Shown piece by piece: positions 20,676 through 64,000 of a stretch of 64,000 nt of DNA. Origin of the DNA: Mycoplasma sp. (ex Biomphalaria glabrata) (lineage in GTDB: Bacteria > Bacillota_I > Bacilli_A > Mycoplasmatales > GCF-1484045); NCBI RefSeq assembly GCF_001484045.1, contig NZ_CP013128.1:1-64000 (forward strand), given 5' to 3'. The notes beneath the pieces were generated by a model. That model made no database searches and was not told the origin of the DNA. It saw only the letters and a program-made list of their open reading frames with translations. Positions within the stretch are counted from its first letter, which is position 1. Every line of letters begins with the position of its first letter. Both the position numbers and the translations under genes were made by a program.

Positions 20676-21501
20676 ATGCAAGGAGCACTAATAGAAAAAT
20701 TTATCAAGCATTTAAAATATGCAGAAAATAAATCTTTAAATACATTAAACAATTATGAACATTACTTAAAAATATATTTAATAAGGTGTAGAAATTTCAA
20801 AATTACACTAGAAGGAAAGTTATATTTCCTAGAATATATTGATAAAACCTATAGTAACAATACTAAAAGACTAATTTTGACGGTGATAGATAAATTTTAT
20901 AAATATTTAAACAACATTGAAAAAATGAAAATTGAAAACCCCTTTTTAGATGTTATTAAACCTAGGATCGATAAAAAGGAATTGATAACTTTATCACCAA
21001 AAGAAATAAATATTATTTTTACATATTTGAAAAAAGAAAATAATTTACAACTGATCAAATTAATATATTTAATATATTATTCTGGGCTAAGAATTACAGA
21101 AGCTTTAAATGTTAAAAATAATGAAATATTAAAAAATGAAATATTTATCAAAGGAAAAGGAAATAAATATAGATATATAAATTTTCATCCCGATCTAAAA
21201 GAATATATCAACAAGAAAAACGATGATTTATGTTTTGTTACAAACACCAAAGAACCTAAATCAAGACGCTGAGCCAATTATTGCGTTAAAAAACTTATTT
21301 ATGAGTGTAAAATAGACAAAAAAAATATCCCCTCATACTTTCAGACACTCGTACGCAACAAACTTATTAAAAAACGGAACAAGTATTTTTACAGTTAGTA
21401 AATTATTAGGACATGCTAGTGTCAAAACAACAGAACATTATATTCATTGAAGTAAAGAATACTTAAATTCAGAGTATAAAAAAATAATCAAAAAAATATA
21501 A
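20676..21501 (+). CDS. Tyrosine recombinase (XerC/D-like), frameshifted at A8
   Basis: About 274 residues when one A is removed from the A8 tract 21318-21325. N-terminal SAM-like domain ([23 protein letters not shown]), then the catalytic set: Arg in [12 protein letters not shown], Lys in [10 protein letters not shown], His-x-x-Arg in [12 protein letters not shown], His in [16 protein letters not shown] and the following Tyr. The second half is read only after the shift. GAAAGGAA lies before the ATG at 20676. Lying inside the inverted repeats, it is the obvious enzyme for flipping its own segment. Confidence 0.92.
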
Positions 21502-31900: not shown

Positions 31901-34900
31901 GCATCAAGAATTCTTTGCAGTTCAATATTTAAATGAGTTGATTGATTGTTACTAAAATTAGTTGTTTGAGTGGTGTCAATTCCTTCAACAAACGCTTTTA
32001 ATCCTCATAATCCTGTTAATCCGGTCGGTAAATTCGTTGAACTAAATGTCGCAATAATTCCGCTAGCAGTTAACTCTGTTCCTTCAGTAAAATTAACTAA
32101 TAGTTTATCAACATCACTAATAACTAACGAACCCGATGCTGTTTTTGTAATTCAACCATAATAACTATCTTTAATTAATCCAATAATTTCATTTATTTTA
32201 GCTGTTAGGTTAGTTTTTTGATCGGTAGTTCAGGCAATTACATCAGAATTTTGCGCATTTTTTAATGGGTCCATTATTGATTTGGTTGCTCATGGCCCAG
32301 GAAATTCAGCTGTCGTTGTTGGCAAATGAGCGATAAAATATTGGGCTAAAGTTGCGGAGTTTAAAGCGGTTCCGGCTGTTTGCCCAATAAGTAAATAATT
32401 AGTGATTTTGTTGTTTGTTAAACCTGCATATCCGTAGTATGAATTATTAATCAAATTGATAATTGATTGAAAATCTGCTTGAAGATTTGTTAATTGCGCA
32501 TCTTTTCAAGTTGTAAATTGTGTAACTCTTGTAAAATTATATTTCGAAGTAGCAGCTGTTCATGAATAAAAAGTACTTAATTTATTGTATGTACTTTTTG
32601 TATGTGTAAACAAATTAATAAATGTAGTTTTATTGATTAATTGAGACGGTGAACCACTAAAATAAGCACTTACATCAAATTTATTAACTATAGCTGGGTC
32701 AGGATAACCTAAATATTCTGTTTTTAAGAAGGTATCATATAAATCATTTATTGCTCCATTAAAGGAATTTAAATTAATATCTTTATATGCTTGGAATTCA
32801 ACAGTGTACCCGAAAGGAAATTTTTGAGTATTTGCATCTTTTCCAGCAATAATTGAAACACTTATGTTATTTCATATTTTTGAAGAAATAAATAAATTTA
32901 ATGCTGTTTTACCGTTTCAACTACTACCCGTCATAACATTTACTCATCGAGCTTTAAGGTCGTTAACTGTGCTAATTGGGTTAGAAGTGTTTTGATCAAT
33001 GTAATAATTTCATAAAGTGTTATTAGCACTATTAATATCTGCAAAACCATAATAAAATGTATTAAATTCTGCAAATATTTGAGTAATATAATAATTTAAT
33101 TGATTACTTGATCAGTTTTTAAACTCATTAAAAGCCATTTCAATACTTGAACCTGAAGCAATATTAAAGTAAGGATCAATAAATCTAATTGGAGTTCCAG
33201 AAGTTAATTTATTTTTAAACTCATTTATTAATCTTTGTAACCCAGTTTTTGGATTACTAATATCATTGTCTGATTTATCAAAAATTAACCCATTATTAGT
33301 ATCTAATACGTAAGTTGGAAACATGTTGGGTAAATTAGTTTCATTATATCAACCTCATTGGTGACCTAAAGATGTTCCTTCAAGGGTAATAATTCATTTG
33401 TCATAAGTACTATTTAGCAATGTTTGAATAGCTTGATTTTGGATACTTACGAAATCAGTAATAATTTGGTCATATTCAGCTTGAGAAATAGTGGGTAAAT
33501 TTGAAGTTGCAGCTATTGTCATATCGCTAATGGTCATAGGGCTAAATGAAAAATCATCTTTTTTACCTAATCATGTTGCTATATTTTCGATAGCTGCTTT
33601 CTGAGCCGCTGTTGCTCCGCTAGTATGAAGTGCAGTTAAATCAACAAAAAACAAATTTTGTGAAAAAAAGGTGGTAAATTGTTGAAGAAGTGGGCTTGTA
33701 GCATCATTTCTAAAATGTCTTTGAAAAACATCTTGTGATGAAGATAAATCAAGAGTTATTATATCTTTGCCAGTTGAAGCAATGTAGTTAATTTTAGAAC
33801 TACTAAAAGTTTGTTCATTACTAAAAAAAGTTTTAGCTGTATTGTAATCATAAGATTCTAAATTTGTGATTTTGTCATTTTCAATATTAAAAGCAAAATA
33901 TCTACTACTTCTTGGTATAGATTTTGCATCTGGAGTGTTAGACATAACTCCGCTTGGAAATAAATAATAAATGTCATTATGACCTTTAAAAAAAGAAAAA
34001 GTTATAGCTTCAGCAGAATAGAACTCGTATTCACTATTTTTGGGAAATTGAAAACTAGCAGTTGCTGTAGCGTTACCTTTTGAATCTATAACACCCATAT
34101 CTAAATTCGCTGAACTGGTTCCGTTGTCTCCTAAATTTATAAAAATGGTTCCATTGTCACTCTTAAACGTTCAGTATCCAAGAGTGTTCTTATATGGAGT
34201 AAAATTTATTGTAAATGGTTCAGCTTGTACATCGCTATATAAATTCTTTCATCCTAATAATGGTTTAGATGGATCAGCTCCACCACTATAGTCATGTTTT
34301 GGTATGGCAGTATCATCAACAAAATCAACATCTTGGACATCGAAACCAGCATCAATGCCAGCCACATTAAACCCTGCCAATGTTCAATTTGGATTTCTAG
34401 GATCAAAATTTATTAAACGATAAACTTCTATTAGTTTAGTATCTTGAGAAATTCACGTAAAGGTTATTATCTTATATTTATTTATCGGTTCAGTATTATC
34501 GTAATATATGCTAATATTTCTAATTGTATTTTGTCCTAAATTACCGCCAGACAAAACATATGTCGTTGAGTCACCGCTTTTTAAGTTAGTTACCCCCGCA
34601 CTTCACAATCCGGTCCCATAGGGATTAGAACTATCACCGCTATCACGGAAAAAGGTAACTAAATCTTCGCCTACTATTTGAGGTTTCAACACTATTTTTT
34701 TACTAACATCAAAACCTAAACTAACCTTCTTGTTTACAACCGTTAATTCTTTAGTTGATGGATCGATTGAGTATGTGGCAAATGAATCAAAATGAGGTCT
34801 TTTAAAAGTTGGAACTCAATAAGGAACAACAACATATTGATCAGATTTTATGGTTGTAAAACCAGAATTATCTCTTAGATTATTCCCTCCGAAATTACTA

Positions 34901-35127
34901 GGAATATAACCACGAAAAGGATCGGTATTTGAATTACTGTTTGGGTTTTCTCCACTCACTGAAGAAAAAATCTCACCATTCGAAGCGTTAAGAATATTAT
35001 CGCCTTGGTGAGATTTTAAGTTATTATTTGAAGCCAATACCCCAGGTTCTGCCAATTTTGAAATTGGATCTATAGCAGTTGTTGTTAAGGTTGAAAAAAT
35101 TGCAAATAATTTTAATTTTCTATTCAT
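25936..35127 (-). CDS. Giant repeat-containing surface protein, about 3060 residues
   Basis: One unbroken frame of 9.2 kb. The ATG at 35127 follows GGAGTG; the N-terminus MNRKLKLFAIFSTLTTTAIDPI is a signal peptide without lipobox. The body carries many degenerate repeats of about 80-160 residues built around an aromatic YYGY/YFGY motif preceded by FKNNE-like acidic helices and followed by GL..L..F..GI. Near the C-terminus a helix (WVIPVIIAGAAVLIFGPTGFFVI) precedes a basic tail ending FYKRK, so most of the protein would be outside the cell. A paralog at 62301-64000 shares this C-terminus. Adhesin or antigen is the likely role (inference). Confidence 0.9.
30640..32170 (-). repeat. Recent internal repeats of the giant surface gene
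   Basis: Blocks encoding SDVDKLLVNFTEGTELTASGII and GLWELK...GI recur at about 30.65-30.80, 30.90-31.05, 31.15-31.30 and 31.98-32.16 kb. The stretches 30917-31051 and 32027-32161 look almost identical at the base level, and 31410-31560 repeats 30020-30180. Such direct repeats can recombine to change protein length. Confidence 0.8.
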
Positions 35128-35141
35128 GAAGTTCACTCCAC

Positions 35142-43885: not shown

Positions 43886-44929
43886 TTATTTTTTATCTAC
43901 GTTATATTCTTCTAAACGAATCGCCAACCATTTTAATAAACTATTAATTTTCATGTAATCCATTCGTTTCGGGCCAACTAGTGATATTTGTTTTGAACCA
44001 CTAGCATTAATATGGTCATAAGATGTTGACACGATAGCTAAATCACGATAATTAGTTCCAACATCCTCGCCAAAAATAACTTGTGGTTCATGTGTTTGAG
44101 AACTATTTATTATGTTTGTCTTTCCTGTCTTGTGATCTAAATGGTCTCAAATCGAATTTTCTTCAAAAAGTTGCAATATTTTTTTAATTTTTTCTGGGTC
44201 ATTAAATTCAGGATTACTTAAAAATTTATTTACACCAACAACACTCCGTGAAGTTGTATCTCCAATAATTAATTGTTTTATAATGTTTTGAAGCAATCGT
44301 TCATAATCTTGAACATTTTTAGAAACAATTTTCCCGATCATATCGATATTAATTGATAATTTTTCTAAATTAATTTCATTTAAACGTTCATTTAAATAAT
44401 CAACACATTTTTTTAAATCATCGATATCGATTTTTTTAGGAATATTAAAAACTTTATCTTGAACACTTCCATTCGTGGTTATTAGCAAGGCTAATGCAGT
44501 GTGAGAAGTTAAAGGAATTATTTCAATTTTCTTTAACTTGTGATTATTAGTTTTTTGAGAAACAATTGCTGCAACAGAAGTTAATTCACTAATAATTTTA
44601 CAAGATTCCTTAATTACTTCATCGATTGATAATACCCTTTCCTCAAAGAGAATTTCTAGTTTTTTTTGAATTTCTGAAGCTTCTTTATTCTCCATTAAAT
44701 TCTCGAAATAATAACGATACCCTTGCGTTGTCGGGATTCTCCCTGAAGCAAAATGATGTTTTTCAATCAAGCCTTTTTCTTCTAGCATAACCATGTCATT
44801 ACGAATAGTGGCGCTCGAACAATCAAGTTCATATTTTGTTAATAATTCATTGCTGCTTATTGGATTTGCAGTATGTAAATATTCTTCAATAATGTTTTTT
44901 AAAATTTGTTGTTGACGTTCATTAATCAT
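43886..44929 (-). CDS. hrcA: Heat-inducible transcription repressor HrcA
   Basis: 347 residues. N-terminal winged helix (NERQQQILKNIIEEYLHTANPISSNELL, SSATIRNDMVMLEEKGLIEKHHFASGRIPT) and the inserted dimerisation core. Binds CIRCE sites, all three in this window being its own targets. Ends 12 bases before grpE. Confidence 0.97.
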
Positions 44930-44939
44930 ACTATCTCTT

Positions 44940-44966
44940 TTAGCAATCTCACTACGAGTTTGCTAA
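44940..44966 (-). promoter_or_regulatory. CIRCE operator of hrcA-grpE
   Basis: TTAGCAATC-N9-GTTTGCTAA, one arm mismatch, 10 bases upstream of the hrcA start. Gives HrcA autoregulation. Confidence 0.92.
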
Positions 44967-45013
44967 TTTATATAATAGCATAATTTTGAAAAATATTATA
45001 AAAATATTCATCT

Positions 45014-45049
45014 AAATAAAAATAACGCCCATCGGCGTTATTTTTATTT
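45014..45049 (-). terminator. Terminator of surface gene A
   Basis: Perfect 16-bp stem ending in TAACGCC / GGCGTTA with loop CATC and T-rich flank. A similar TAACGC hairpin closes genes B, C, D and E. Confidence 0.92.
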
Positions 45050-45074
45050 ATTTAATAGAAAGAATAAGTGACTA

Positions 45075-48000
45075 CTATTGCCCTTCTCATTCTTTTCAGT
45101 TTAGTAATTCACCAGCAGCTGATAATGTCCCTTTATCGTTAACATATAGACTTTTCAAGTATTCAGCAACCACTGAATAGTGAGTAATTCTATTGATTAA
45201 ATCCGTTTGGGCAATTTGTGCTTTAAATAATGTATATAATCCATCAACATTACTTTCTAAACCATAAGTTGATCCATTTTTACATATGAATAATGTTCAA
45301 ATGTGATTTGCCCCCGTAAATGGGCTTGGGGTTTGTGTATAATTAAAATCTTTGTCATTATAATATTGAACTAATAATTCCAAAATATTTCTTAAATCAC
45401 CTTTGGCGATAACTTCTTGAGATTCAGAGAATATGAATAAATCATAAAATACTCCTCCTGAAATTCCGCTATTAAAGAAATCATAAATTTTATAAAATCC
45501 TCATCCTTTAGCAGCATCAAGAATATTTGATTCAATTTGAGCATTTGTTAATGGAGTTTTGTGATCACTACCTAAAAAGTATTCAATAAAGTAGTTTGGT
45601 AAAGTAGTGTCGTTATTGTAACCTCAATAAGCATTGTTGTATTCTCTCACAGCATGTTCAATATCATAACTTAATGCTGTTCTTTGTTCGTCTTTAAATT
45701 CACCCGAAATTTTATTTTCATTTACTAAAGTTTCTAATCAAACTTTAACGCCGTATGAGAATGGGAAGTCTTGAGTTCCGTGCATGTCAATAACGTTTTG
45801 TTTGAATAATTTTAATAACGCTACGGAATCTAGCGGAGTTCCATCATTTTGAATAATCAATAATGTTCTGCTAACTAAAGAATCCATTTCAGTTGTATAA
45901 CCGTAGTAATTATTTACCATTTCATCATAAATTGGGTTTCATGCTTTTTGTAATGAATTACTTTGATCTGTTAAAAATTCATTGATTGCAGTTTTATCTG
46001 TAATTAATGTTGTTAAGAAACCATTTAAATATCATTTCCCTGGTAGATCTATTGTTGGTGTACTTGGGAAGTTATCCATTAAATAATTTGCCAATACAAC
46101 AGGGTCCAACGGAGTTCCATCAGTATAACCTAGCAATACATAATCACTAACTGAATTATTTGCTAATCTTTCAAAACCATAGTAATATGGTTCAATCATT
46201 CCAATAATTGTTGTAAAGTGATCAATTACTTGTTTTCTTTGATCTTGAACGAATGCTTGAAAATCTGTATTTTCAATAGTTATATTTCCTAAGAATTGAC
46301 GAACTAAATATGGTTTTGGGAAACCTTCAGCACTAACAGATAAACCTTGTTTAAATGCATCAACAATCATTTGCTCGTTTGGTGGTGTATTTGTTCGGTG
46401 TGTATAAAAAATTACTTGATAGATGGCATTTGCACCAAATTCAGGAGATGCTGAATAACCATAGTATGTATTTTCAAAAAGAGGAACAATTCTTGAAATT
46501 TCTTGACTTAGATACTTTGATTCATTATTTTTAAAAGTATTTATATCATCTGAAGTGATTAATTTAAGAAATCCTTTTATTTCATATAAACCAGTTAGTC
46601 CAGTTGGTAAAGATTCCATGGTAATTGTTGCAGCAATAGCTTCAGGGGATAACTCTGTGTTCACTGGAAAATTCACCAATAATTTGTCAACATTCGACAC
46701 AAGTAATCCAAAACCACTTGTTGTAGTTACTCAACCAAAATAATTGTCTTTAATTTTATCTATAATTTTTTGTAAGTCATTATTTAATTGAGTTTTTTGA
46801 TCATTTACTCAATCATTTAAACCTAATTCTGGATTACTTTTTAGTGAATCGATCATTGATTTTGTTGCTCAAACACCTAGATATTCATCTGAAGTCGCTG
46901 GATGATTTAAAATAAAATAATCTGCTAAATCAGCTGCACTCATTTGTTTTTCAACTTCTAAATTTTGAAAAATATAAGTTGTCAATCTATTGTTAGCTAA
47001 ACTTGCATATCCGTAATATGATGGTGAAACTAAATCAATAATTGACTGAAAATCTTGTTCTAGAGATGATTGTTGATAGAAAACATAATTCAAAAAGTTT
47101 TGATTTTCGGCTGGTCTATAATAAGAACCTTCAGACGTTCATATAAAATATTTACTCAATTCAATATATGTTGCTGCTGTGTGAATAAAAGAATCTTTAA
47201 ATTCCTGCATTGTAACAATTTGGGTTGGTGTTCCAGAAAAATATTGACTAACATTAAATACACCATTTGGATCAGCATACCCAAAATAATTGTTTTCTAG
47301 AAATTGATTATATAGAGTATTTGTTGCTAACTTAAAAGAGTTTGTATTAATCAATGTAAAATTATTAAAATCTGCTGTTGCTACAAATTCGTATTGTTCA
47401 ATGGTTGCATCCTTGCCACCCACCGAATCAACAGATAAACCTGCTCAAACATCAGTTGAAAATAAAAAGTTTATAACAGTTGAAGCATTTCATGAAGGAT
47501 CCTTCATTACATTTATTCATTTACTAATAACTTCGTCAACTGAAGTAAGAGGATTTAATGTAGCATCATCTAAATAATAGTTTCAATATTGTTGATTTTG
47601 TGAATTTAGGTCAACAAAACCATAATAAAAACTATTATATTGATTAATAATTTTTTGAACATAATAACTAAATTGATTTTTACCTCATGTTTGATATTCA
47701 TGAAAAGCCGTTTCAATTGCACTTCCTGAAACAGGATTTAAGTATGGTTCAGTCAAACGTTCTGGATTACCAGCTTCTAAACTATCATGAAATTTTGCTA
47801 ATAAATTTTGCAACCCTACCCCAGGGTTTGCAATGTTATCATCTTTGTTATCAAACGTTAATCCGTTTTTTGAATCAATTACGTATGCTGGAAACATGTT
47901 TGATAAGTTATTTTGGTTATATCAACCTCATTGATGACCGTCTTCTGTCCCCTCCATTGTTTGAATTCATTTTGAATAAGTTAAATCAATCAATGTTTTT

Positions 48001-48485
48001 GCAGCAATTGATTGAATGGATGCAAAATTATCAATAACTGTTGCTAATTCGTCTGGGTTTAAGTCTTCTGGGAAATTAGCGGTTGCTGCAGCCACCAACT
48101 GTTCATTAGTCATCGGACTAAATCTATAATCGGAACTTTTTCCGATTCATAAAGATATCTTATCAATAGCATCTTTTTCAGATGGGGTTGCTTGATTTTC
48201 ATATGCCGAAGTTAAATCGACAAAATATAATCCATTTTTAAGAAAAAATTCGAATTGATTTAAAAATGGTGATACGTTAGCATTAAATTCTTTTATAGAT
48301 TTTGATGCATAATCTACTTGCTGAGTAGTTGAGTTAAAAGTTTGTGATGTGGTTTGTGTTTGCTGTGAATGGTTTTTACTAATTTGTTGTTCATTAGTGT
48401 TTCGGTTCATAAAGCTTGAAATTGGCACAAGTGTAACTGTTGTTAAAGTTGCTAAAAGTGCCAATAATTTGAATTTTTTATTCAT
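45075..48485 (-). CDS. Large secreted surface protein A
   Basis: 1136 residues in one frame. The N-terminus MNKKFKLLALLATLTTVTLVPI is a signal peptide or uncleaved anchor, without a lipobox and with no C-terminal membrane helix; the end is LLNWKEWEGQ followed by two stops. The body repeats the YYGY/YFGY unit (about 85 residues) and domains such as MTNEQ near residue 130 that also occur in the giant proteins. Near-identical to B and C over most of its length, with mosaic differences suggesting gene conversion. Function unknown; antigenic surface protein likely. Confidence 0.88.
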
Positions 48486-48581
48486 ATTTTTCCTTTGTAT
48501 TTCTTCTATATATGTTATTATTATAAATCTAAATTTTGTTAAAATTTTAATTTAAGACATAGAAAATATATATAATAAAAA

Positions 48582-49105
48582 TTATTTACTTTTATTGGGT
48601 TGATTTTTTTATACATAAAAAAAATTACACAAGTTATAGAACAAATACCAATCATTCCGATGAAAATTCACAGAACTCATAACAAGTTGTTATTATTAAT
48701 AACATTATTTGAAGCAAATATTGCGCTAAGTGTTATTAAAAAATTATTGTAATCATCTGTAAAATTATTAATGAATTGGGTATTTACTAATAAATCTTGA
48801 TTCGGGTAAAATCGATTAGTATTTTTTAATAAACCATTTTGAAAATCATCAATAAACTTATTTATTAATCTAGCATTTTTATCAATCTCTTCTCTATTTG
48901 CTATTTCTTCATAAATATCGTTATTTACCTTTTAAATCAACGTCCCAAAACTAAGAATTTATTAATTGGATCACTGATAAAATTGTTTAAATTATTTTTT
49001 GTTCAAAACCTAACTTGATTTTCCTATATCACTAATAAAAAATAATGTTCTAATATTCAATAAAATTAATGATATTTTTTTAAGTAACTGACTATTTAAT
49101 TGCAT
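48582..49105 (-). pseudogene. Remnant of membrane protein family F (copy 3)
   Basis: Keeps both ends of the gene at 56911-58608 (start MQLNSQ...LLKKISLILL and the C-terminal helix before the YKKN-like tail) but has lost about 1.2 kb in the middle near 48930-48950 and carries frame breaks. Lies between surface genes A and B as the third member of the tandem unit. Confidence 0.8.
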
Positions 49106-49123
49106 ACTTTATATAATTCCTAT

Positions 49124-49156
49124 AAAAAAATAACGCCGATGAGCGTTATTTTTATT
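49124..49156 (-). terminator. Terminator of surface gene B
   Basis: AAAAATAACGC / GCGTTATTTTT hairpin with loop CGATGA, T-rich flank. Confidence 0.88.
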
Positions 49157-49182
49157 TATTTAGTAGAAAGAATAAGAAGTTA

Positions 49183-52100
49183 CTATTGTGCTTCTCATTT
49201 TTTTCAGTTTCGTAATTCACCAGAAACTGTTAATATCCCTAGAATGTTAACATGATATAGACTTTTTAAGTATTTAGCAACCACTGAATAGTGAGTAGTT
49301 TCGTTGATTAAATCTGTTTGAGCAACTTGTGCTTTAAAAAGGTTGTACATTGAATCAACATCCGTTGGTAAACCTATAGTTGAACCATTTTTAGTGTTAA
49401 AGAAAGTTCAAATGTGATTTGCACCCTTAAATGGGCTTGGGGTTTGTGTATAATCAAAATTTTTATCATAATAAAATTGAACTAATAATTTAAAAATTTC
49501 TGATAAATCATCTTTGGTATTAACTTCTTGAGATTCGGAGAATGTGGACAAATCATAAAATACTCCTCCTGAAATTCCGCTATTAAAGAAATCATAAATT
49601 TTATAAAATCCTCATCCCTTAGCAGCATCAAGAATATTTGATTCAATTTGAGCATTTGTTAATGGAGTTTTGTGATCACTATCTAAAAAGTATTCAATAA
49701 AGTAGTTTGGTAAAGTAGTGTCGTTATTGTAACCTCAATAAGCATTATTGTATTCTCTAACAGCTTGTTCAATATTATAACTTAACGCTGTTCTTTGTTC
49801 ATCTCCAAATTCACCCGAAATTTTATTTTCATTTACTAAAGTTTCTAATCAAACTTTAACGCCGTATGAGAATGGGAAGTCTTGAGTTCCGTGCATATCA
49901 ATAACATTTTGTTTGAATGATTTTAATAATGCTACTGAATCTAGCGGAGTCCCGATATTTTGAATAATCAATAATGTTCTGCTAACTAAAGAATCCGTTT
50001 TAGTTGTATAACCGTAGTAATTATTTACCATTTCATCATAAATTGGGTTTCATGCATTTTGTAATGAATTACTTTGATCTGTTAAAAATACATTGATTGC
50101 AGTTTTATCTGTAATTAATGTTGTTAATAAATCATATAAATATCATTCCCCTGGTAGAAATGTTGATGGTTTTGGGAAGTTATCCATTAAATAATTTGCT
50201 AATACAACAGGGTCCAACGGAGTTCCATCAGTATAACCTAGCAATACAAAATCACTAACTGGATTGTTTGCTAATCTTTCAAAACCGTAGTAATATGGTT
50301 CAATCATTCCAATAATTGTTGTAAAGTGATCAATTACTTGTTTTCTTTGATCATGAATAAATGCTTGAAAATCTGTACTTTGAACCGTTATATTTCCTAA
50401 AAATTGACGAACTAAATATGGTTTTGGGAAACCTTCAGCACTAACAGTTAAACCTTGTTTAAACGCATCAACAACCGTTTGTTCATTTAGTGGTGTACCT
50501 ACCGTGTGTGTATACAAAATTGTTTGATAAATGGCATTTGCACCAAATTCAGGAGATGCTGAATAACCATAGTATTCGTAATTTGCAACAAAACTAACAA
50601 TTCTTGAAATTTCTTGACGTAAATACTCTGATTCATTATTTTTAAAAGTATTTATATCATCTAAACTGATTGATTTAAGAAATCCATTTATTTCATTTAA
50701 ACCAGTTAACCCTGTTGGTAAAGATTCCATGGTAATTGTTGCGGCAATAGCTTCAGGGGATAATTCTGTGTTCACTGGAAAATTCACCAATAATTTGTCA
50801 ACATTTGACACAAATAATCCAAAACCACTTGTTGTAGTTACTCAACCAAAATAATTGTCTTTAATTTGATCTATAATTTTTTGTAAGTCATTATTTAATT
50901 GAGTTTTTTGATCATTTACTCAATCATTTAAACCTAATTCTGGATTACTTTTTAGTGAATCAATCATTGATTTTGTTGCTCAAACACCTAGATATTCATC
51001 TGAAGGCAATGGATGATTTAAAATAAAATATTTTGCTAAATCAGCTGCACTCATTTGTTTTCCAAGTTCTAAACTTTGAAAAATATAAGTTGTCAATCTA
51101 TTGTTAACTAAAGTTGCATATCCGTAATATGATGGTGAAACTAAATCAATAATTGACTGAAAATCTTGTTCTAGAGATGATTGTTGATAGGAAACATAAT
51201 TCAAAAATTTTTGATTTTCGATTGGTTTATAATAAGAACCATCAGGTATTCATATAAAATATTTGGTCAATTTGAAAAATGTTTCCATTTTGTGTTTAAA
51301 AGAATTTTTAAATTCTTGTATTGTAACAATTTGCAGTGGTGTGCCAGAAAAATATTGACTAACATTAAATGAACCATTTGGATCGGCATACCCAAAATAA
51401 TTGTTTTCTAGAAATTGATTATATATAGTATTTGTTGCTAACTCAAAAGAGTTTGTATTAATCAATGTGTAATTATTAAAATCCGCTGTTGCTACAAATT
51501 CGTATTGTTCAATGGTTGCATCCTTACCGCCCACCGAATCAACAGATAAATCTGCTCAAACATCAGTTGAAAATAGAAAGTTTATAGCAGTTGAAGCATT
51601 TCATGAAGGATCCTTCATTACATTTATTCATTTACTAATAACTTGGTCAACCGAAGTAAGGGGATTTAAAAAACCATCCTCTAAATAATAATTTCAATAT
51701 TGTTGATTTTGTGAATTTTGGTCATCAAAACCATAATAAAAACTATTATATTGATTAATAATTTTTTGAACATAATAACTAAATTGATTTTTGCCTCATG
51801 TTTGATATTCATGAAAAGTCGTTTCAATTGCACTTCCTGAAACAGGATTTAAGTATGGTTCAGTCAAACGTTCTGGATTACCAGCTTCTAAACTATCATG
51901 AAATCTTGCTAATAAATTTTGCAACCCTAACCCAGGGTTTGCAATGTTATCATCTTTGTTATCAAACGTTAATCCGTTTTTTGAATCAATTACGAATGCT
52001 GGAAACATGTTTGATAAGTTATCTTGGTTATATCAACCTCATTGATGACCGTCTTCTGTCCCCTCCATTGTTTGAATTCATTTTGAATAAGTCGAATCGA

Positions 52101-52596
52101 TCAATGTTTTTGCAGCAATTGATTGAATGGATACAAAATCTTTAATAGCTGTGTCTAATTCGTCTAGATTTACGCTATCTGGAAAATTAGCGGTTGCTGC
52201 AGCCACCAACTGTTCATTAGTCATTGGACTAAATGTGTAATCGGAACTTTTTCCGATTCATAAAGATATCTTTTCAATAGCATCTTTTTCAGATGGGGTT
52301 GCTTGATTTTCATATACCGAAGTTAAATCAACAAAATATAATTCATTTTTAAGAAAAAATTCGAATTGACTTAAAAATGGTGATTCGTTAGCATTAAATT
52401 CTTTTATAGATTTTGATGCATAATCTGTTCACTGAGTAGTTGAGTTAAAAGTTTGTGATGTGGTTTGTGTTTGCTGTGAATGGTTTTTACTAATTTGTTG
52501 TTCATTAGTATTCCAGTTCATAAATTTTGAAATTGGCACAAGTGTAACTGTTGTTAAAGTTGCTAAAAGTGTCAATAATTTGAATTTTTTATTCAT
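49183..52596 (-). CDS. Large secreted surface protein B
   Basis: 1137 residues, one frame. Same plan and signal region as A (MNKKFKLLTLLATLTTVTLVPI), same YYGY repeats, no membrane helix at the end. Most differences from A are single residues or short patches (for example NYEYYGYSASPEF against ENTYYGYSASPEF). ATG follows AAGGAAAA. Confidence 0.88.
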
Positions 52597-52694
52597 ATTT
52601 TTCCTTTGTATTTTTTCTTTTATATGTTATAATTTTAAATTTAAATTTTAATAAAATTTAAATTTGAGACATAGAAAATATATATAATAAAAAA

Positions 52695-53360
52695 TTATTT
52701 ACTTTTATTAGGTTGATTTTCTTTATGTATAAAAAAAAATCACATAGGTTATAGAACAAATATCGATCATTCCAATGAAAATTCACAGAATTCATAACAA
52801 GTTGTTATTATTAATAACATTATTTGAAGCAAATATTGCGCTAAGTGTCGTTAAAAAATTATTGTAATCATCTGCGAAATTATTAATGAATTGGGTATTT
52901 ACTAATAAATCATAATTCGAGTAAAATCGATTAGTATTTTTTAATAAACCATTTTAAAAATCATCAATAAACTTATTTATTAATCTGGCATTTTTATCAA
53001 TCTCTTCTCTATTTGCTTTTTCTTCATAAATATTATTAATTGTTAAAATTAACAAACTTTCATAACTTTGAATATCATTAATTAACATTGTGTTATATAA
53101 ATTTATACTATTAATTAAATCTTGATTCAATTTAAACGATGTGTCTACTTTTTCAAGGCTGTATATAATTTGATTATAAATTGGTGACAAGTTATTGCTT
53201 AATGTGTTTTGAATTTGTTGGATTAATGAATTTATATTATTTGATAAATCGTAAAAAGGATTAATTTTAATAAACTTATTAAAAATTCAGTTTGAATTTT
53301 ATTTTGTAATTTATTAAAAATTCAATTTACAAAACTATTAAATCAGTATCTTTGCCTTTA
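52695..53360 (-). pseudogene. 5'-truncated remnant of membrane protein family F (copy 2)
   Basis: Matches the C-terminal 40 percent of the gene at 56911-58608 (NQIIYSLEKVDTSFKLNQDL...). It has no start, an in-frame TAA after NKFIDDF (near 52956) and further breaks. Homology stops abruptly at the terminator of surface gene C. Confidence 0.82.
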
Positions 53361-53361
53361 T

Positions 53362-53391
53362 AAAAATAACGCCAATGGGCGTTATTTTTAT
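53362..53391 (-). terminator. Terminator of surface gene C
   Basis: AAAAATAACGCC / GGCGTTATTTTT, loop AATG. Confidence 0.9.
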
Positions 53392-53417
53392 TTATTTAGT
53401 GAAAGAATAAGAAGTCA

Positions 53418-56400
53418 CTATTGTCCTTCTCATTTTTTTCAGTTTCGTAATTCACCAGAAACTGATAATATTCCTAGAATGTTAAAACGATATAGACTTT
53501 TTAAGTATTTAGCAACCACTGAATAGTGAGTAGTTTCATTGATTAAATCTGTTTGAGTAACTTGTGCTTTAAAAAGGTTGTACATTGAATCAACATCCGT
53601 TGGTAAACCTATAGTTGAACCATTTTTAGTGTTAAAGAAAGTTCAAATGTGATTTGCCCCCGTAAATGGGCTTGGGGTTTGTGTATAATCAAAATTTTTA
53701 TCATAATAAAATTGAACTAATAATTTAAAAATTTTTGATAAATCAACTCTGGCAGTAGCTTTTTGAGATTCCGAGAATGTGGACAAATCATAAAATACTC
53801 CTCCCGAAATTCCACTATTAAAGAAATCATAAATTTTATAAAATCCTCATCCCTTAGCAGCATCAAGAATATTTGATTCAATTTGAGCATTTGTTAATGG
53901 AGTTTTGTGATCACTACCTAAAAAGTATTCAATAAAGTAGTTTGGTAAAGTAGTGTCATTATCGTAACCTCAATAAGCATTGTTGTATTCTCTAACAGCT
54001 TGTTCAATATTATAACTTAATGCTGTTCTTTGTTCATCTCCAAATTCACCCGAAATTTTATTTTCATTTACTAAAGTTTCTAATCAAACTTTAACACCGT
54101 ATGGGGATGGGAAGTCTTGAGTTCCGTGCATATCAATAACGTTTTGTTTGAATAATTTTAATAATGCTACTGAATCCAGTGGAGTTCCATCCTTTTGGAT
54201 AATCAATAATGTTCTGCTAACTAAAGAATCCATTTCAGTTGTATAACCGTAGTAATTATTTACCATTTCATCATAAATTGGGTTTCATGCTTTTTGTAAT
54301 GAATTACTTTGATCTGTTAAAAATACATTGATTGCAGTTTTATCTGTAATTAATCTTGTTAATAAATCATTTAAATATCATTCCCCTGGTAGAAATGTTG
54401 ATGGTGCCGGGAAGTTATCCATTAAATAATTTGCTAATACAACAGGGTCCAACGGAGTTCCATCAGTATAACCTAGCAATACAAAATCACTAACTGGATT
54501 ATTTGCTAATCTTTCAAAACCATAAAAATATGGTTCAATATCAAAGAAAACAAGTAATTGATCACTTTACAACAATTATTGGAATGCTTGCATGAATGCT
54601 TGAAAATCTGTACTTTGAATAGTTATATTTCCTAAAAATTGACGAACTAAATATAATTTCGGAAAACCTTCAGCACTAACAGTTAAACCTTGTTTAAATG
54701 CATCAACAACCATTTGTTCATTTAGTGGTGTACCTACCGTGTGTGTATACAAAATTGTTCGATAAATGACATTTGCACCAAATTCAGGAGATGCTGGATA
54801 ACCAAAGTATGTATTTTCAACAAGAGGAACAATTCTTGAAATTTCTTGACGTAGATACTCTGATTCATTATTTTTAAAAGTATTTATATCATCTGAAGTT
54901 ATTGATTTAAGAAATCCATTTATTTCATTTAAACCAGTTAGTCCAGTTGGTAAAGATTCCGTGGTAATTGTTGCAGTAATAGCTTCAACAGATAATTCTG
55001 TGTTCACTGGAAAATTCACCAATAATTTGTCAAGATTTGTCACAAATAATCCAGTAAAATTTGTTGTAGTTACTCAACCAAAATAATTGTCTTTAATTTG
55101 ATCTACAATTTTTTGTAAGTCATTATTTAATTGAGTTTTTTGATCATTTACTCAATCATTTAAACCTAATTCTGGATTACTTTTTAGTGAATCAATCATT
55201 GATTTTGTTGCTCAAACACCTAGATATTCATCTGAAGTCGCTGGATGATTTAAAATAAAATATTTTGCTAAATCAGCTGCACTCATTTGTTTTCCAACTT
55301 CTAAACTTTGAAAAATATAAGTTGTCAATCTATTGTTAACTAAACTTGCATATCCGTAATATGATGGTGAAACTAAATCGATAATTGACTGAAAATCTTG
55401 TTCTAGAGATGATTGTTGATAGGAAACGTAATTCAAAAATTTTTGATTTTCGGTTGGTTTATAATAAGAACCATCAGGTATTCATATAAAATATTCGGTC
55501 AATTTGAAAAATGTTTCTATTTTGTGTTTAAAAGAATTTTTAAATTCTTGTATTGTAACAATTTGCGCTGGTGTTCCAGAAAAATATTGACTAACATTAA
55601 ATACACCGTTTGGATCGGCATACCCAAAATAATTGCTATCTAGAAATTGATTATATATAGTATTTGTTGCTAGCTCAAAAGAGTTTGTATTAATCAATGT
55701 ATAATTCTTAAAATCCGATGTTGCTACAAATTCGTATTGTTCAATGGTTGCATCCTTACCACCTACCGAATCAACAGATAAATCTGCTCAAACATCTGTT
55801 GAAAATAAAAAGTTTATAACAGTTGAAGCATTTCATGAAGGATCCTTCATTACATTTATTCATTTACTAATAACTTGGTCAACCGAAGTAAGGGGATTTA
55901 AAAAAGCATCCTCTAAATAATAGTTTCAATATTGTTGATTTTGTGAATTTTGGTCATCAAAACCATAATAAAAACTATTATATTGATTAATAATTTTTTG
56001 AACATAATAACTAAATTGATTTTTACCTCATGTTTGATATTCATGAAAAGTCGTTTCAATTGCACTTCCTGAAACAGGATTTAAGTATGGCTCAATCAAA
56101 CGTTCTGGATTACCAGCTTCTAAACTATCATGAAATCTTGCTAATAAATTTTGCAACCCTACCCCAGGGTTTGCAATGTTATCATCTCCGTTATCAAACG
56201 TTAATCCGTTTTTTGAATCAATTACGTATGCTGGAAACATGTTTGATAGGTTATTTTGGTTATATCAACCTCATTGATGACCGCCTTCTGTTCCCTCCAT
56301 TGTTTGAATTCATTTTGAATAAGTCGAATCAATCAATGTTTTTGCAGCAATTGATTGAATGGATACAAAATCTTTAATAGCTGTGTCTAATTCGTCTGGG

Positions 56401-56828
56401 TTTACGTTATCTGGAAAATTAGCAGTTGCTGCAGCCACCAACTGTTCATTAGTCATCGGACTAAATGTATAATCAGAACTTTTTCCGATTCATAAAGATA
56501 TCTTTTCAATAGCATTTTTTTCAGACAGAGTTGCCTGATTTTCATATGCCGAAGTTAAATCGACAAAATATAATTTATTTTTAAGAAAAGATTCGAATTG
56601 ATTTAAAAATGGTGATTCATTAACATTAGATTCTTTTATAGATTTTAATGCATAATCTACTCACTGAGTAGTTGAGTTAAAAGATTGTGATGTGGTTTGT
56701 GTTTGCTGTGAATGGTTTTTACTAATTTGTTGTTCATTAGTGTTCCGGTTCATAAAGCTTGAAATTGGCACAAGTGTAACTGTTGTTGAAGTTGCTAAAA
56801 GTGCCAGCAATTTGAATTTTTTATTCAT
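53418..56828 (-). pseudogene. Large surface protein C, interrupted by a 46-bp inversion
   Basis: Same architecture and length (3411 bp) as A. The frame is intact from the ATG at 56828 to 54576, where the inverted block at 54541-54586 brings in-frame TAA codons (54576-54578 and 54567-54569). The product is cut to 750 residues; downstream the original frame resumes unchanged to 53418. If the block were turned back the gene would read through like A and B. Confidence 0.88.
54541..54586. other. 46-bp exact micro-inversion inside surface gene C
   Basis: Begins TCAAAGAAAACAAGTAATTG and is the exact reverse complement of the block at the same place in genes A (from about 46198) and B (from about 50307). 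Flanks on both sides stay in normal orientation and total length is unchanged. GAATGCTTG occurs twice at the right junction, pointing to a template switch. Confidence 0.93.
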
Positions 56829-56910
56829 ATTTTTCCTTTATGTGTTATAATTATAAGTCTAAATTTTGTTAAAATTTTAATTTAAGACATAGAATATATA
56901 TAATAAAAAA

Positions 56911-58608
56911 TTATTTACTTTTATTGGGCTGATTTTTTTTATACATAAAGAAAACCACATAAGTTATAGAACAAATACCGATCATTCCGATGAAAATTCA
57001 CAGAACTCATAACAAGTTGTTATTATTAATAACATTATTTGAATCAAATATTCCACTAAGTGTTGTTAAAAAATTATTGTAATCATCTGCAAAATTATTA
57101 ATGAATTGGGTATTTACTAATAAATCTTGATTCGGGTAAAATCGATTAGTATTTTTTAATAAACCATTTTGAAAATCATCAATAAACTTATTTATTAATC
57201 TAGCATTTTTATCAATCTCTTCTCTATTCGTTTTTTCTTCATAAATATCATTAATTGTTAAAATTAATGACCTTTCATAACTTTGAATATCATTAATTAA
57301 CATTGTGTTATATAAATTTATACTATTAATTAAATCTTGATTCAATTTAAACGATGTGTCTACTTTTTCAAGGCTGTGTATAATTTGATTATAGATTGGT
57401 GACAAATTATTGTTTAATGTGTTTTGAATTTGTTGGATTAATGAATTTATATTATCTGATAAATTGTAAAAAGGATTAATTTTAATAAAACTTATTAAAA
57501 ATTCAGTTTGAATTTTATTTTGTAATTTATTAAAAATTCAATTTACAAAACTATTAAAATCAGTATCTTTTCCTTTTAAATCAACATCTCAAAACTGAGA
57601 ATTATTGATTGGATCGCCAATAAAATTATTTAAATTATTTTCTGTTCAAAAACTAACCTGATTTGGTTCATTTTCGTTATTTATTCCAATTAAATACATC
57701 GATAATAAATTGCTATTTTGATCAATTCCGCCAGACATAATAAATTGTTCTAAGGATAATCAGATATTGTTTAGATTGTGAATGATATTTAAATTTTCAA
57801 TGCGAAATTGATCAGTTGAAACTGTAATACTATTATTAAACATATCAGAACAAATTAAAGAATTGAAAATAGAATCTGGTTTATTATTTAGTAAAATAGT
57901 TTCTATCGATGGCAATAAATCATTATTAATATTGTTTCATCAGGAATTTTCATCTAATTTGTTAATAGCATTTTTAGTCACTAATTGATACACACTTTGT
58001 TTTAAAGTAGAAGTTGCAATTGAATTTTTTATGTAAAAATTGAAAAATGAGGAATTAAATGAATTAAAAAAATCACTTAATGTATTTTCTTTTACATTAT
58101 CTGTAATTTTAAAATCAATGTAATTTGGGAAAACATTATTTAATCCGTTAATATCAAATGGCAAGCTTGCAACTTTTCCACCATCTGGGTCTGGTGAAAA
58201 TTTTATGAAATTATGAAAAATATTTTTAACATTATCTTCTAAAACGTTAGTTCAAATGTTACTTAAAAAATAATCATAATAGATTGTTGTTAAGTTATCA
58301 TTTTCGAAACTTAACAAGTTGTTGTATGATTCTCCTACTGTAGTATCGTTTGCTCAAAAATTTAATTTATTATCTGTTTCGTCAGATTTTTCCGAATAAG
58401 AAAATAATAATAAAATTGATTGAAGATATTCATTGAAATAATAGACTAAATTTTGAGAGGGAATGTCTCCAAGTTTTGTATTTTTAAGATTATTAAAGTT
58501 GTTATTGTTAAAACTACTTGATTTTCTTATGTCACCAATAAAAAATAATGATGTAATAATTAATAAAATTAATGATATTTTTTTAAGTGTCTGACTATTT
58601 AATTGCAT
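56911..58608 (-). CDS. Membrane protein family F, intact copy
   Basis: 565 residues in one frame. N-terminal hydrophobic helix (KKISLILLIITSLFFIGDI) as signal or anchor, a long Asn-rich exported body with helical heptad-like stretches, and a C-terminal transmembrane helix (WIFIGMIGICSITYVVFFMY) followed by KKNQPNKSK. Topology outside-body, inside-tail. No known domain. Lies upstream of surface gene C in the same direction; two decayed copies sit in the same position before B and A, so F and the surface gene were duplicated as a unit. Confidence 0.82.
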
Positions 58609-58627
58609 ACTTTAATTATAATTCCTA

Positions 58628-58660
58628 TAAAAAAATAACGCATCGTGCGTTATTTTTTTT
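58628..58660 (-). terminator. Terminator of surface gene D
   Basis: AAAAAATAACGCA / TGCGTTATTTTTT with loop TCG and T run. Confidence 0.9.
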
Positions 58661-58683
58661 ATTTTGAAAGAAAAGTTATTTAA

Positions 58684-61600
58684 TTATTGATTTTCTCAAT
58701 TTAATCAATTTAGTAATTCCCCATTCGCTACTATATTGCCCTTAACATTTGTATATAAACTATTTAAGTAAGAAGCAATTTGTGAAAAACCAACTTTATC
58801 GTTAACTAAATTAGTTTCAGCGATTTGTCCTTTAAAAAGGTTGTACAATGAATCAACATCTGTTGGTAAACCTATAGTTGAACCATTTTTAGTATTAAAG
58901 AAAGTTCAAATGTGTTCTGCTCCAGCGAATGGCAATGATGTTTGGTTAAATGTAAAATCTTTGTGTTTATAACCTTGATTTAAAATTATTAAAATATTTG
59001 ATAGGTCATTTTTCAAACACTCTGTTTGTTGTTGTGCATATACACTTAAGTCAAAAAATACATGTCCAACATTTTGTGAATTAAAGAAAACATAAATTCT
59101 TTGTTCCCCACCTCATTCACTCTTAGCATCGAAAATGATATTATTTGCTATATCACTAACTGGTAATGTAGATTTTCCATCTGGAGTTAAAAAATAATGA
59201 TCAAAGTAAGCTGGCATCATTATATTGTAACCTCAATTGCTATTTTTATATTGAGTTAAAGAATTATCAATATCACTAATCAACGCATTCTTCTCTTGTG
59301 TTCCGAATTCACCATCGATTTTATTTTTTGAGATTAAATCCGCAAATCAGTTTGCGACAGCATAAGAAGCGGGAAAGTTTACCACATTGTTTGCAACATT
59401 ATTTTTAAATATTGTTAACAATGCATTCGAATCCAAAGCTTCTCCATTTTTTACAGGAAGTAAAATTGTTTCAGTAACAACAGACGTTATTCCAGTTATA
59501 TATCCAAAATAAACATTTGATATTTCTTCAAGAATTGGTTGTCAAAATTTGTTTTGCAAAGTTGAATCTTGATCCGCTAAGAATCGATTAATTAATGTCC
59601 CGTCCTCAATTATTATTTGAAAGTATCCGTTTGCTAATCATTTATGTTGTAATTCAGTTTGTGATGGTTGAAAATTGTCAATAAAGAATTGAGCTAAAGC
59701 TACTGGATCTGGTTTTTCTCCATAAGTTTGTCCTTTTAAAACATAATCACTAATTGGATTATCTGCTAAATTTTCAAAACCATAATATGATGGCAAAATT
59801 CTATTAATAATAATTGTAAATTGATTAACAATTTGTTGTTTTTGGTCATCTAAAAAGGCTTGTAAATCTTTATTGTCGGAAGTAATTTGTGTCATGAAAG
59901 TAATAACAGCATATTTTTGTGGAAATCCAGGAGCTTGCTCTTGAATTCCGTTTTTAAATGCAAGAACTATATCATGTAAAGTAAGTTCTGAATTTTGTTC
60001 GTGATGAAACATAATTGTTTGAGCAATAGAATTTGTTACTAATGATGATGATGGATTAAAACCAAAATATGATGGTGTTAATAATGGTAAAATTCGTTGA
60101 ATTTGATAAAAAATATTAATAGCTTGATTGTTCAAAAAAGTATTTACATCGTCGACATTATTAATACTATTCAAAAATTTTGCAACATTTCATAAATTCT
60201 CAACATCCGTTGGTAAAGAGGTTTTATTTATAGTTGCAGCAATTTCTTCTGGTGTTAATTGCGTTCCTTGTTCTACATGAACAAGTAATCTATCAATAGA
60301 TGTAACCAAAATTCCTTGACCAGCTTCCTTAGAAATTCATCCATAATAACGATCTTGAACTTCATTAACAATATCAGTTATTTTTGTTAGTAATTTTTGT
60401 TGTTGATCTTTAATTCAATCCGCAGTTCCCATATCAGGATTGCTTATTAATTCTTGCATAATTGTTTTTGATTCTCATGCTCCCGGAAATTCAGCTGAAG
60501 TAGTTGGTAAATTTTCAACATAGTATAAAGTTAGTTCAAATGCATTTAGTTGTTGATTTAAATCGTATATTCCGCGGAATATATATGTTGTTAAACGATT
60601 TCCTAGTAAACCTCCAAAACCATAGTATGAATCTTCTACAATGTTAATTATTGATTGAATATCTTTTTGAAGTGATTCTTGTTGATTACGAATATATTCA
60701 TTAAATTTTTCTGTTTCAATAAAATTATAAGTATCGTAATCTGGTGTTCATGAGTAAAATTGACTCAATGCCTGAAATGTTGAATATGAATGCGTGAAAG
60801 TTGCTCTAAATGCATCCTCTGAAACAATTTGCAGTGGTGAACCGCTAAAATATTGAGAAACATTAAATGTTGAGCTAGGATCATCGTATCCAAAATATCG
60901 TTTTGTTAAGAATTCTTCATAAAGACTACGAGTTGATATGACAAATGTTGACATATTGATTGATCTGTAAATAGCAAAATTTTCTGAATCACGTCATTCA
61001 ACTGGTATTATTTTTGTATCAATATCAGCTGCCTTTTCCGGTGTTAAATTATCTCAAACACCTGTTGAACATAGAAAATTTAACACAGAAACGCCATCTC
61101 ATTTTTGATCTTTCATTTCGTTAGTTCATTGACCAATTAATTCATCAATAGAACTTATCGGATTAAGTGTTTCTTTATTTAAATAATTGCTTCAAAGATC
61201 GTTATTACTTTGATTAATATCAGCAAAGCCGTAATAGAATGTCTTAAATTGATCTAGGATTTGTTGAGCGTAATAGCTGAATTGAGTTTTACCTCAAGTT
61301 TGATAATCATGAAAAGTTCTTTCAATATCACTACTAGTTGTTGGATTTAAATATGGTTCAATAAAACGAGCAGGTTTTCCATTATTTAAATCCGTATGGA
61401 AACGAGAAATTAAATTAAATAAACCATATTTTGGATGATTCATATCGTTATCTGTTTTGTCATATACCAAACCATTAGTTCCAGGAACCAAAGCTGGGAA
61501 CATATATTGCCCATTTTCAGGATTCATAAAACCTCACTGATGGCCGTTTTCTGTTCCTTCCATCGTCATAATTCATTTCGCATATGTTGCATTTAGCAAT

Positions 61601-62096
61601 ACCGTAATTTCAGTATTCTGAATTGTGGTAAAATCTAAAATTGTTGTATTCATTTGCTCATCTGTTACACTATCAGGTAAGTTAGCAGTTGCAGCTGCTA
61701 CCATTTGATTGATATTCATAGGTCCGAATGTGTAATCGCCTTTTTTACCTAATCAGGTTGCCACGTTTTCGATAGCTACTTTTTGATTAGGTGTTGCGCT
61801 ATCATTATATGCACTTTTTAAGTCAATAAAGTAAAAATTTGTTTCCAAAAAATTAATGAATTTGTTTAAAATAGGAGTATTTGTCATTGATGTTAATTTA
61901 TTTGAATTTACAGTGTAATTGACAAAAACATTACTATTTTGAGATATTAAATTTTGTCGAGCTAATTTTGCATTATTAGCATCATTTTGTTGTTTTGTTT
62001 CGCTACCTTCTGATGTTTTAACTAATGTAGCTGTAGGCACGGCAACGACTGTTGTTAAAGTCGTTAAAAGTGCCAATAACTTGATTTTTTGTTCAT
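58684..62096 (-). CDS. Large surface protein D, divergent paralog with frameshifted signal peptide
   Basis: The main frame from 62076 to 58684 encodes about 1130 residues like A-C (repeats with SYFGFNPSSS, SYYGFENLADNPISDYV; end NWENQ). The ATG expected from the paralogs, at 62096, is out of frame: MNKK is followed by A6 (62085-62090) where A7 would give MNKKIKLLALLTTLTTV in frame. As written, translation needs a TTG at 62076 without the basic start of the signal peptide, so the gene is probably off or poorly expressed. Confidence 0.83.
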
Positions 62097-62168
62097 TTTT
62101 TCCTCTTTTTATTTATATTTGATACATTGTTGTACTCTTTAATTATAACATTCAACCTTTTTTTAAAA

Positions 62169-62193
62169 AAAATAACGCCCTAGACGTTATTTT
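62169..62193 (-). terminator. Terminator of surface gene E
   Basis: AAAATAACG / CGTTATTTT, loop CCCTAGA. It lies behind 62212, the stop of the frameshift-extended version of gene E. Confidence 0.8.
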
Positions 62194-62300
62194 ATGGTTT
62201 GATTTTGAAGTTTACTTTTTTTTACTTTTAAACAAAAAACTTGTCGCATCTTTATGTTTTGCCTTTGTTTGATGATTTTTTAACAATTGCTGTTTATTTT

Positions 62301-64000
62301 TTAACTCAATATGTTTTTTAAGGTTTTTCCTGTTTGAGATCTTGATCTAATTTTTCGAATCGTAAAGAACATAGTAGGAGCAATTACTGTAACTGATGCT
62401 ACAGCGATAATTACCGGAATAACTCAACTTGGTAATGAAGATGTTTCACTTGGTGGAACGATATGAGGCAAACGACTAATTACTTCATCAATAGATAAAA
62501 CTTGGTTATTATAGTCTGGGCTCATAATACTTATATTTGTACGAATTTTTCTACCAGAAGATAAATCGTAACCAACCCCTATTTGAATATAAATATCACG
62601 AACAGCTTTTGTTGTGTGATGCAATTCAGAAATTGAAGTAATTGTGTTAATTCCTTGTTGTGCTGGCATCGGTAATGAACTTGTTCCGTCATAATCTGGT
62701 GATTCGTTGGCAAAATCAAATGTACCTTTATCATATTCAATCGCAGCAGTCGAGTTCTCAGTCGAATTTGGTGTATCTAAATTTTTAGCAATAGTAATTT
62801 TTTGAGCTAAATTGTAAGTTGGAGTTCCTGATGAGGTATCTGCAACAGTAAATAATAATTGATCAAATGGAAATTTATTATTTGCTGAAATAATCTTATA
62901 TGTAAATTGTTGAAATCCCTTTGTAATAATTAAGGTTGCCCCATAAGAAACATTTCCGTTTTGTGAACTTGGAGAAAATGTTAGTGAGTCAACATCTCCG
63001 TTCAATAAATGTTGCCCTGACCCTAACTCTACGATAGTTGCTGAAATTTTAGCAGATTTTAATAGTTTTGGATTGGTTGGTTCATAAATCAATTGAAGCG
63101 GCATTCCGTACTGAGAGAAGAATAAAAACGTATGTTTTAAAGCGGTATTATTTCAATCTGTATTTTCATCACCTTGCGTTAGAGAAAATCATTGCGATGA
63201 TATTTCATTTAAATCCGCAACAGATGTTGGGTTTCCTGATTGATTTAAAAAATTAGATAATGCTTGTTTGGATTCGCTAAAATTTTGATAATTACCACGA
63301 TAATTTGCCTCAGTTTTTCAGGACTTATTACTTTCTGATTCAGCTAAGAAGTTAAAAATTTCTGTTTGTCTTTTGAATCCTTTTTCACTTGCAGCTAAAT
63401 CTTTACTACTTAAATTTGCTTGTTCTTGAGTAAAATTTTGAATATTATCTTCATAAAATTTTCAAGCATTATAACTCAATCGATAGGTTGCAGAAGAATC
63501 GGGAGTTATCATTTGATTATAAGTTTCACGATCTAAAACCCCCATAGCTACGTTGATATCAATAGTTGCACCTGTTGGTCCTGTCACTCAACCAGGTAAG
63601 TTGGGAAATGATAATGTAGACCCATTAAATGTTGCAAAATACCCTTGTGAAACAGCAGAATATTTTTTATTAACCTCTTCTAAATAACTACGATAAACAT
63701 TTGTTTGTTCATCTTTAAATTGATTTTCGTTTCCACGATAATCAGTAACTATATTTGCCTCTCAAGTTGGTGTAGTAGTTGAATTATGAAAAGTATGAAC
63801 ATAATTTATAAAGGCAGTTTGATTAAATATTGCTGATGTTACATCTGATGATGTTCTAACAAATACCCCATTATCTAATGCATTATCTCCACCCAACGTT
63901 TTAAAAGATAACTTATTACCATTTACATCATTTATAAATCCACGGAATATGATTTTATACTCATTAATAATTTTAGTTACATCATCTTCAAAAGCATTTC
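62301..64000 (-). CDS. Giant surface protein E, C-terminal part; start outside the window
   Basis: Frame open from the window edge to 62301, homologous to the C-terminal part of the giant protein at 25936 (LPMPAQQGINTITS, SLDE/IDEVISRLP, SETSSLPSWVIPVIIA). The membrane helix is followed by IRKIRSRSQTGKTLK, then the frame stops. At A6 (62314-62319) one more A would extend it by about 35 residues (HIELKNKQQLLKNH... to FKSKKK, stop 62212), matching the basic tail of the first giant protein. So the cytoplasmic tail appears truncated. Confidence 0.85.

Follow-up and report, generated by a model that had tools for sequence, protein, structure and literature searches.

A short block of gene C, a member of a tandem array of surface-type genes, runs in the opposite orientation to its counterparts in the close copies. 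The question raised by this locus is whether the block acts as a reversible on/off device, as suggested in the original prediction, or records a single mutational event. The window analyzed comprised 64,000 nucleotides, namely, positions 1-64000 of the single-contig, 647,830-bp genome (97.5% complete) of a Mollicute. The G+C content of the window was 28%, and the array genes used code 4 (TGA = Trp). On the minus strand, the region from ~26 kb to 116 kb was mostly occupied by arrayed long genes encoding hydrophobic segments at the N-terminus. These included the intact paralogs A (45075-48485; 1136 aa) and B (49183-52596; 1137 aa), gene C (53418-56828; 1137 codons including two premature TAA codons and the terminal stop), and the diverged paralog D (58684-62076), all on the minus strand. 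The proteins of A, B, and C were mutually 85-90% identical, and the identity of D was ~43%. Two further close copies, E and F, were located just beyond the window. In that part of the array, two 5-N gaps (genome 65383-65387 and 68778-68782) bounded a 3.4-kb piece. The outer sides of these gaps were identical over 165 bp and the piece contained a ~208-bp near-identical duplication, which suggests that the gap-bounded piece is a scaffold join or a mis-assembly.

The family proteins carried [YF]YG[YF] motifs with a spacing of ~92 residues, located in A at residues 287, 400, 490, 582, 674, 768, 860, and 953. The AlphaFold model of the gene B protein (pLDDT 78) consisted of all-helical repeats, and no significant PDB fold match to this model was obtained. 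Moreover, Pfam, NCBIfam, and PDB sequence searches with the family proteins returned no relative and nothing useful, and homologues of the A-D family were found neither in 298 genomes of the order nor, by profile, in 39 relatives, a comparison in which the genus and family of the source were each represented by the source genome alone. The family, which appears to be a very large, lineage-specific set of helical-repeat surface or secreted proteins, extended over 25936-35136 and 45075-64000 and, past the window, as far as genome 116 kb, and occupied much of a ~90-kb stretch with its regularly spaced motif. An Rfam search of 44000-64000 gave no match. Upstream of B, a decayed 3' remnant (52596-53364) of a membrane-anchored 565-aa ORF (56911-58608) was present, and a stretch related to this ORF was also found upstream of A. 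These stretches imply tandem duplication of a two-gene unit.

The bounds of the inverted block were set by trying the flip of every interval, and 54540-54586 gave the fewest mismatches to A and B. This block, which covers codons 748-763 of gene C on the minus strand, was the exact reverse complement of its counterparts in A (46197-46243, minus strand), B (50305-50351, minus strand), and F, with one mismatch to E. The block had previously been described as 46 bp long; the 54541-54586 segment was indeed a perfect reverse complement of A 46197-46242 and B 50305-50350, with 0 mismatches, but one end base had been missed, and the true unit was 47 bp. The best uninverted match of 54541-54586 elsewhere in the window had 19 mismatches. 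When 54540-54586 was reverted, the mismatches over 201 bp fell from 50 to 13 for A and equally for B. As predicted, register and total length were kept in C relative to A and B, and the flip introduced two in-frame TAA codons after codon 750 with the frame preserved. Among the full-length family members, an internal stop was found in C only. In the B model, the inverted codons map to a long helix (residues 741-768) that belongs to the sixth repeat delimited by the motifs.

When 51 kb of paralog diagonals were scanned in register and without gaps for reverse complements, the block was recovered in each of the four comparisons with close copies, while two decoy scans of the paralog diagonals (reverse only, and reverse plus transition) gave zero hits. 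Gapped BLAST alignments do not reveal the block, whereas the gapless-diagonal scan does. The flip in C is far beyond chance. In the case of polarity, the counterparts in E (genome 65422-65468; 1 mismatch) and F (genome 68533-68579; 0 mismatches) had the A/B orientation, so that A, B, D, E, and F all carried the same orientation and C alone was inverted. The left flank ATGCAAG (coding strand) was common to C and E and set C apart from A and B. Together, the orientation of the other five copies and the left flank common to C and E identify C as the derived, flipped copy. A T-to-G change adjoining the junction was considered as part of the event and rejected because E has this change without the flip; most simply, the change would have preceded the flip.

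The original prediction attributed the flip to a GAATGCTTG repeat at the junction that favored template switching at a quasi-palindrome. The GAATGCTTG direct repeat is real in C, with an ancestral copy at 54594-54602 and a junction copy at 54582-54590 (both plus strand), and the uninverted A and E carry one copy. The second copy consists of CTTG of the flank joined to GAATG of the flipped block. As this junction copy is exclusive to C, the repeat is a product of the flip, and it was rejected as the cause since it appears only after inversion. Within 3 nt of the block ends, inverted repeats in C and E reached no more than 3 bp; in C these were CAA (54536-54538) and TTG (54588-54590), both on the plus strand and each separated from the block by 1 nt. 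For the E-like state before inversion, arms of this length have a chance probability of ~19% (P about 0.19 with 1 nt tolerance). Longer, 6-bp arms, GTTCAA/TTGAAC (P about 0.01), were present at the block ends of copy A only. On comparing strand folding with shuffles, z values of -2.4, -0.9, and -0.6 were obtained for the uninverted strand of A, for B, and for C, respectively. Since only A folded somewhat better than the shuffles and B and C did not, no consistent quasi-palindrome exists at the block.

One further clear event was detected in the same scan, in which the decoys remained empty. A 15-bp segment upstream of gene B (52721-52735) was the exact, in-register reverse complement of 56936-56950 (minus strand; coding sequence within the 565-aa ORF that lies upstream of C) and had 1 mismatch relative to E. 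It was flanked by a perfect 7-bp inverted repeat, TGATTTT (52714-52720) and AAAATCA (52736-52742) on the plus strand, and such arms at zero offset from the flip have P<0.002. The site could alternatively be explained, less simply, by an insertion together with three or four substitutions. This smaller flip sits in the degenerate remnant of the 565-aa ORF, and because its host is a dead remnant, a switch there would serve no intact gene.

Gene C had been described as switched off. Its truncation was confirmed, but loss of the product was not: the truncated ORF (54576-56828, minus strand) encodes 750 aa with an N-terminal hydrophobic export segment and five [YF]YG[YF] repeats, and the predicted product would keep the export signal and five of the eight ~92-aa helical repeats. 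No C-terminal membrane anchor that truncation would remove was found in A-D. An exported 750-aa N-terminal fragment is predicted from C, and "truncated" is therefore better founded than "off". The remainder of the gene (53418-54539, minus strand) was open, with no further stop in the 358 codons downstream of the block. The changes unique to C in this part were 10 synonymous and 12 nonsynonymous, compared with 9 and 13 for B, and the synonymous share in C exceeded the neutral ~21% (p=0.008 in a test on 22 changes). The downstream C-specific changes thus still show purifying selection. The lack of a downstream stop, together with the constrained changes, indicates that the flip is recent, and as the downstream divergence was mostly under constraint, it mostly accumulated before the flip. 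Gene C therefore resembles a recent pseudogene, with a disabling change followed by an open and constrained frame. The accumulation of stops expected after an old accident was absent and the 3' part was intact, which we read as recency, although it is compatible with reversal too. With RecA intact in the genome, gene conversion among the copies could make the 3' part seem younger than it is.

Known invertible segments require pairs of sites and an invertase, and intragenic inverton flips can introduce premature stops. The block ends and the enzyme content of the genome bear on whether the 47-bp segment toggles between a full-length and a truncated surface protein. No flanking recombination sites were found at the block, where the longest inverted-repeat arm in C was 3 bp. 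The serine recombinase domain (PF00239) had no match in the ~97.5% complete genome, and the sole tyrosine recombinase found, a XerC/D-like protein (PF00589; 20676-21456, plus strand), was frameshifted near 21310, which parts its first portion from the C-terminal motif HTFRHSYAT...; this frameshift is either real or a sequencing error. A conserved 5' site of the Xer1/HvsR type, inverted between genes, was not found, and all close copies are transcribed in the same direction. Apart from the block, the reverse-strand matches among the A-F units were imperfect palindromes in intergenic stretches rather than opposed site pairs; these were terminator-like after the genes and, ahead of the start codons, 72-98 bp long at about 75%. 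Site-specific recombination was therefore rejected on block ends, loop length, and enzyme content.

A reversible intragenic inverton giving phase variation would suit a surface-type gene family, an exact flip that keeps the frame, and a downstream part that is intact and constrained, and intragenic invertons are a published class as cited in PMC11868660. However, the inverted repeats at the ends are at most 3 bp, no intact site-specific recombinase was found, A, B, E, and F share one orientation, and the persistence length of DNA far exceeds a loop of 47 bp (argument in PMC8755829), which is too short for synapsis. The second flip of the same type, located in a dead remnant, further weakens the proposed on/off device, and we regard such an inverton as very improbable. 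A length switch free of recombinases, in which the block would flip repeatedly and at appreciable frequency by template switching in the service of a surface protein, appears even more remote. Nothing in the assembly points to two orientations at the block; reversal of the 47-bp flip is unlikely, and the change is probably one-way in effect. An assembly or library artefact, by which a short segment common to the copies was set in the wrong orientation in C, also had to be weighed, as A, B, and F have the same block sequence and the array is hard to assemble, as shown by the two gaps and the neighboring 165-bp exact duplicate. However, divergence between the copies does not set in at the block ends, as the stretch they have in common runs on for about 13 nt on the right, and the gaps lie 11-14 kb from the block. 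As the gaps are 11 kb away even at the nearest and the block ends are off the divergence points, a misplaced repeat is unlikely. Moreover, 47 bp is below common read lengths, and the second small flip, flanked by inverted-repeat arms, demonstrates such a process within the array. We therefore consider an artefact unlikely, though less so than the two switches.

The remaining alternative is an ectopic event: during repair, the opposite strand of a neighboring paralog (A, B, or F) would have been the template for the inverted 47 nt, so that template switching and gene conversion acted together. The block has 0 mismatches to these three copies although the flanks of C differ from A at 31/258 positions and from B at 18/258, and RecA is intact. 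However, conservation of the block extends to every copy, with a single difference in E, so that its identity does not discriminate, and a local event is simpler; an ectopic origin is accordingly improbable. We conclude that the 47-bp change is probably a recent, single, in-place micro-inversion that arose from a replication or repair error in one copy of the tandem family. The flip is exact and in place, the flanks and length are unchanged, and the state in C is derived relative to the other copies, as in micro-inversions made without a recombinase. In this local event, 47 nt would be copied from the wrong strand, followed by a return to register. Two routes may lead to this outcome: a short-range template switch onto the opposite strand with a return, or a break within the segment repaired through microhomology. 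Both the 47-bp and the 15-bp events fit short-range template switching or break repair mediated by microhomology (PMC8755829, PMC8604942, PMC7954356). Template switching, as named in the original prediction, is thus reasonable as a class of mechanism, but not with the GAATGCTTG repeat as its cause. Sequence support for either route at the 47-bp event is weak; as the ends carry a 3-bp inverted repeat only, there is little direct sequence support for template switching at the block, and the polymerase-level mechanism is putative.

Among known systems, the flip in gene C belongs to the class of micro-inversions. In the published human-chimpanzee set, these are exact, short, located at inverted repeats of at least 3 nt, and too short for looping recombination (PMC8755829). 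The event in C is likewise an exact, in-place flip that keeps its length and is too short for looping recombination, and the 15-bp flip also has the flanking arms of that set, which are perfect in its case. However, the human-chimpanzee inversions are 17-33 bp, eukaryotic, and all have inverted repeats at their ends (PMC8755829), whereas the event in gene C is 47 bp, bacterial, has 3 bp near its ends, and truncates a protein. Events of template switching can be as long as 128 nt, and length is preserved in 5.5% of them (PMC7954356). In yeast, template switching inverts the spacer between arms inside coding DNA, which the 15-bp flip fits; these inversions need arms of >9 bp and change 2-5 bp of spacer (PMC8604942), and gene C is without such arms.

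Intragenic invertons (Chanin et al. 2024, as cited in PMC11868660) resemble C in that the inversion lies within coding sequence, whereas in C no inverted-repeat sites and no intact recombinase were found and one orientation is present in this assembly. The Vpma, Vsa, Vsp, and Mpl systems of Mycoplasma (PMC2268961), like the array of C, are tandem surface-protein families in a Mollicute in which inversion alters the product. However, they use a Xer1/HvsR-type recombinase and conserved sites upstream of genes, and promoters or whole gene blocks are flipped, whereas in C 47 bp were flipped mid-gene with no such site. An in-frame flip alone is thus no sign of a phase switch, and tandem surface genes can gain a truncated allele without indels or recombinases. 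Compared with these systems, the locus provides a clean, polarised bacterial case of a mid-size micro-inversion, with a smaller second one in the same array, in a class documented mainly from primates and yeast in the cited literature.
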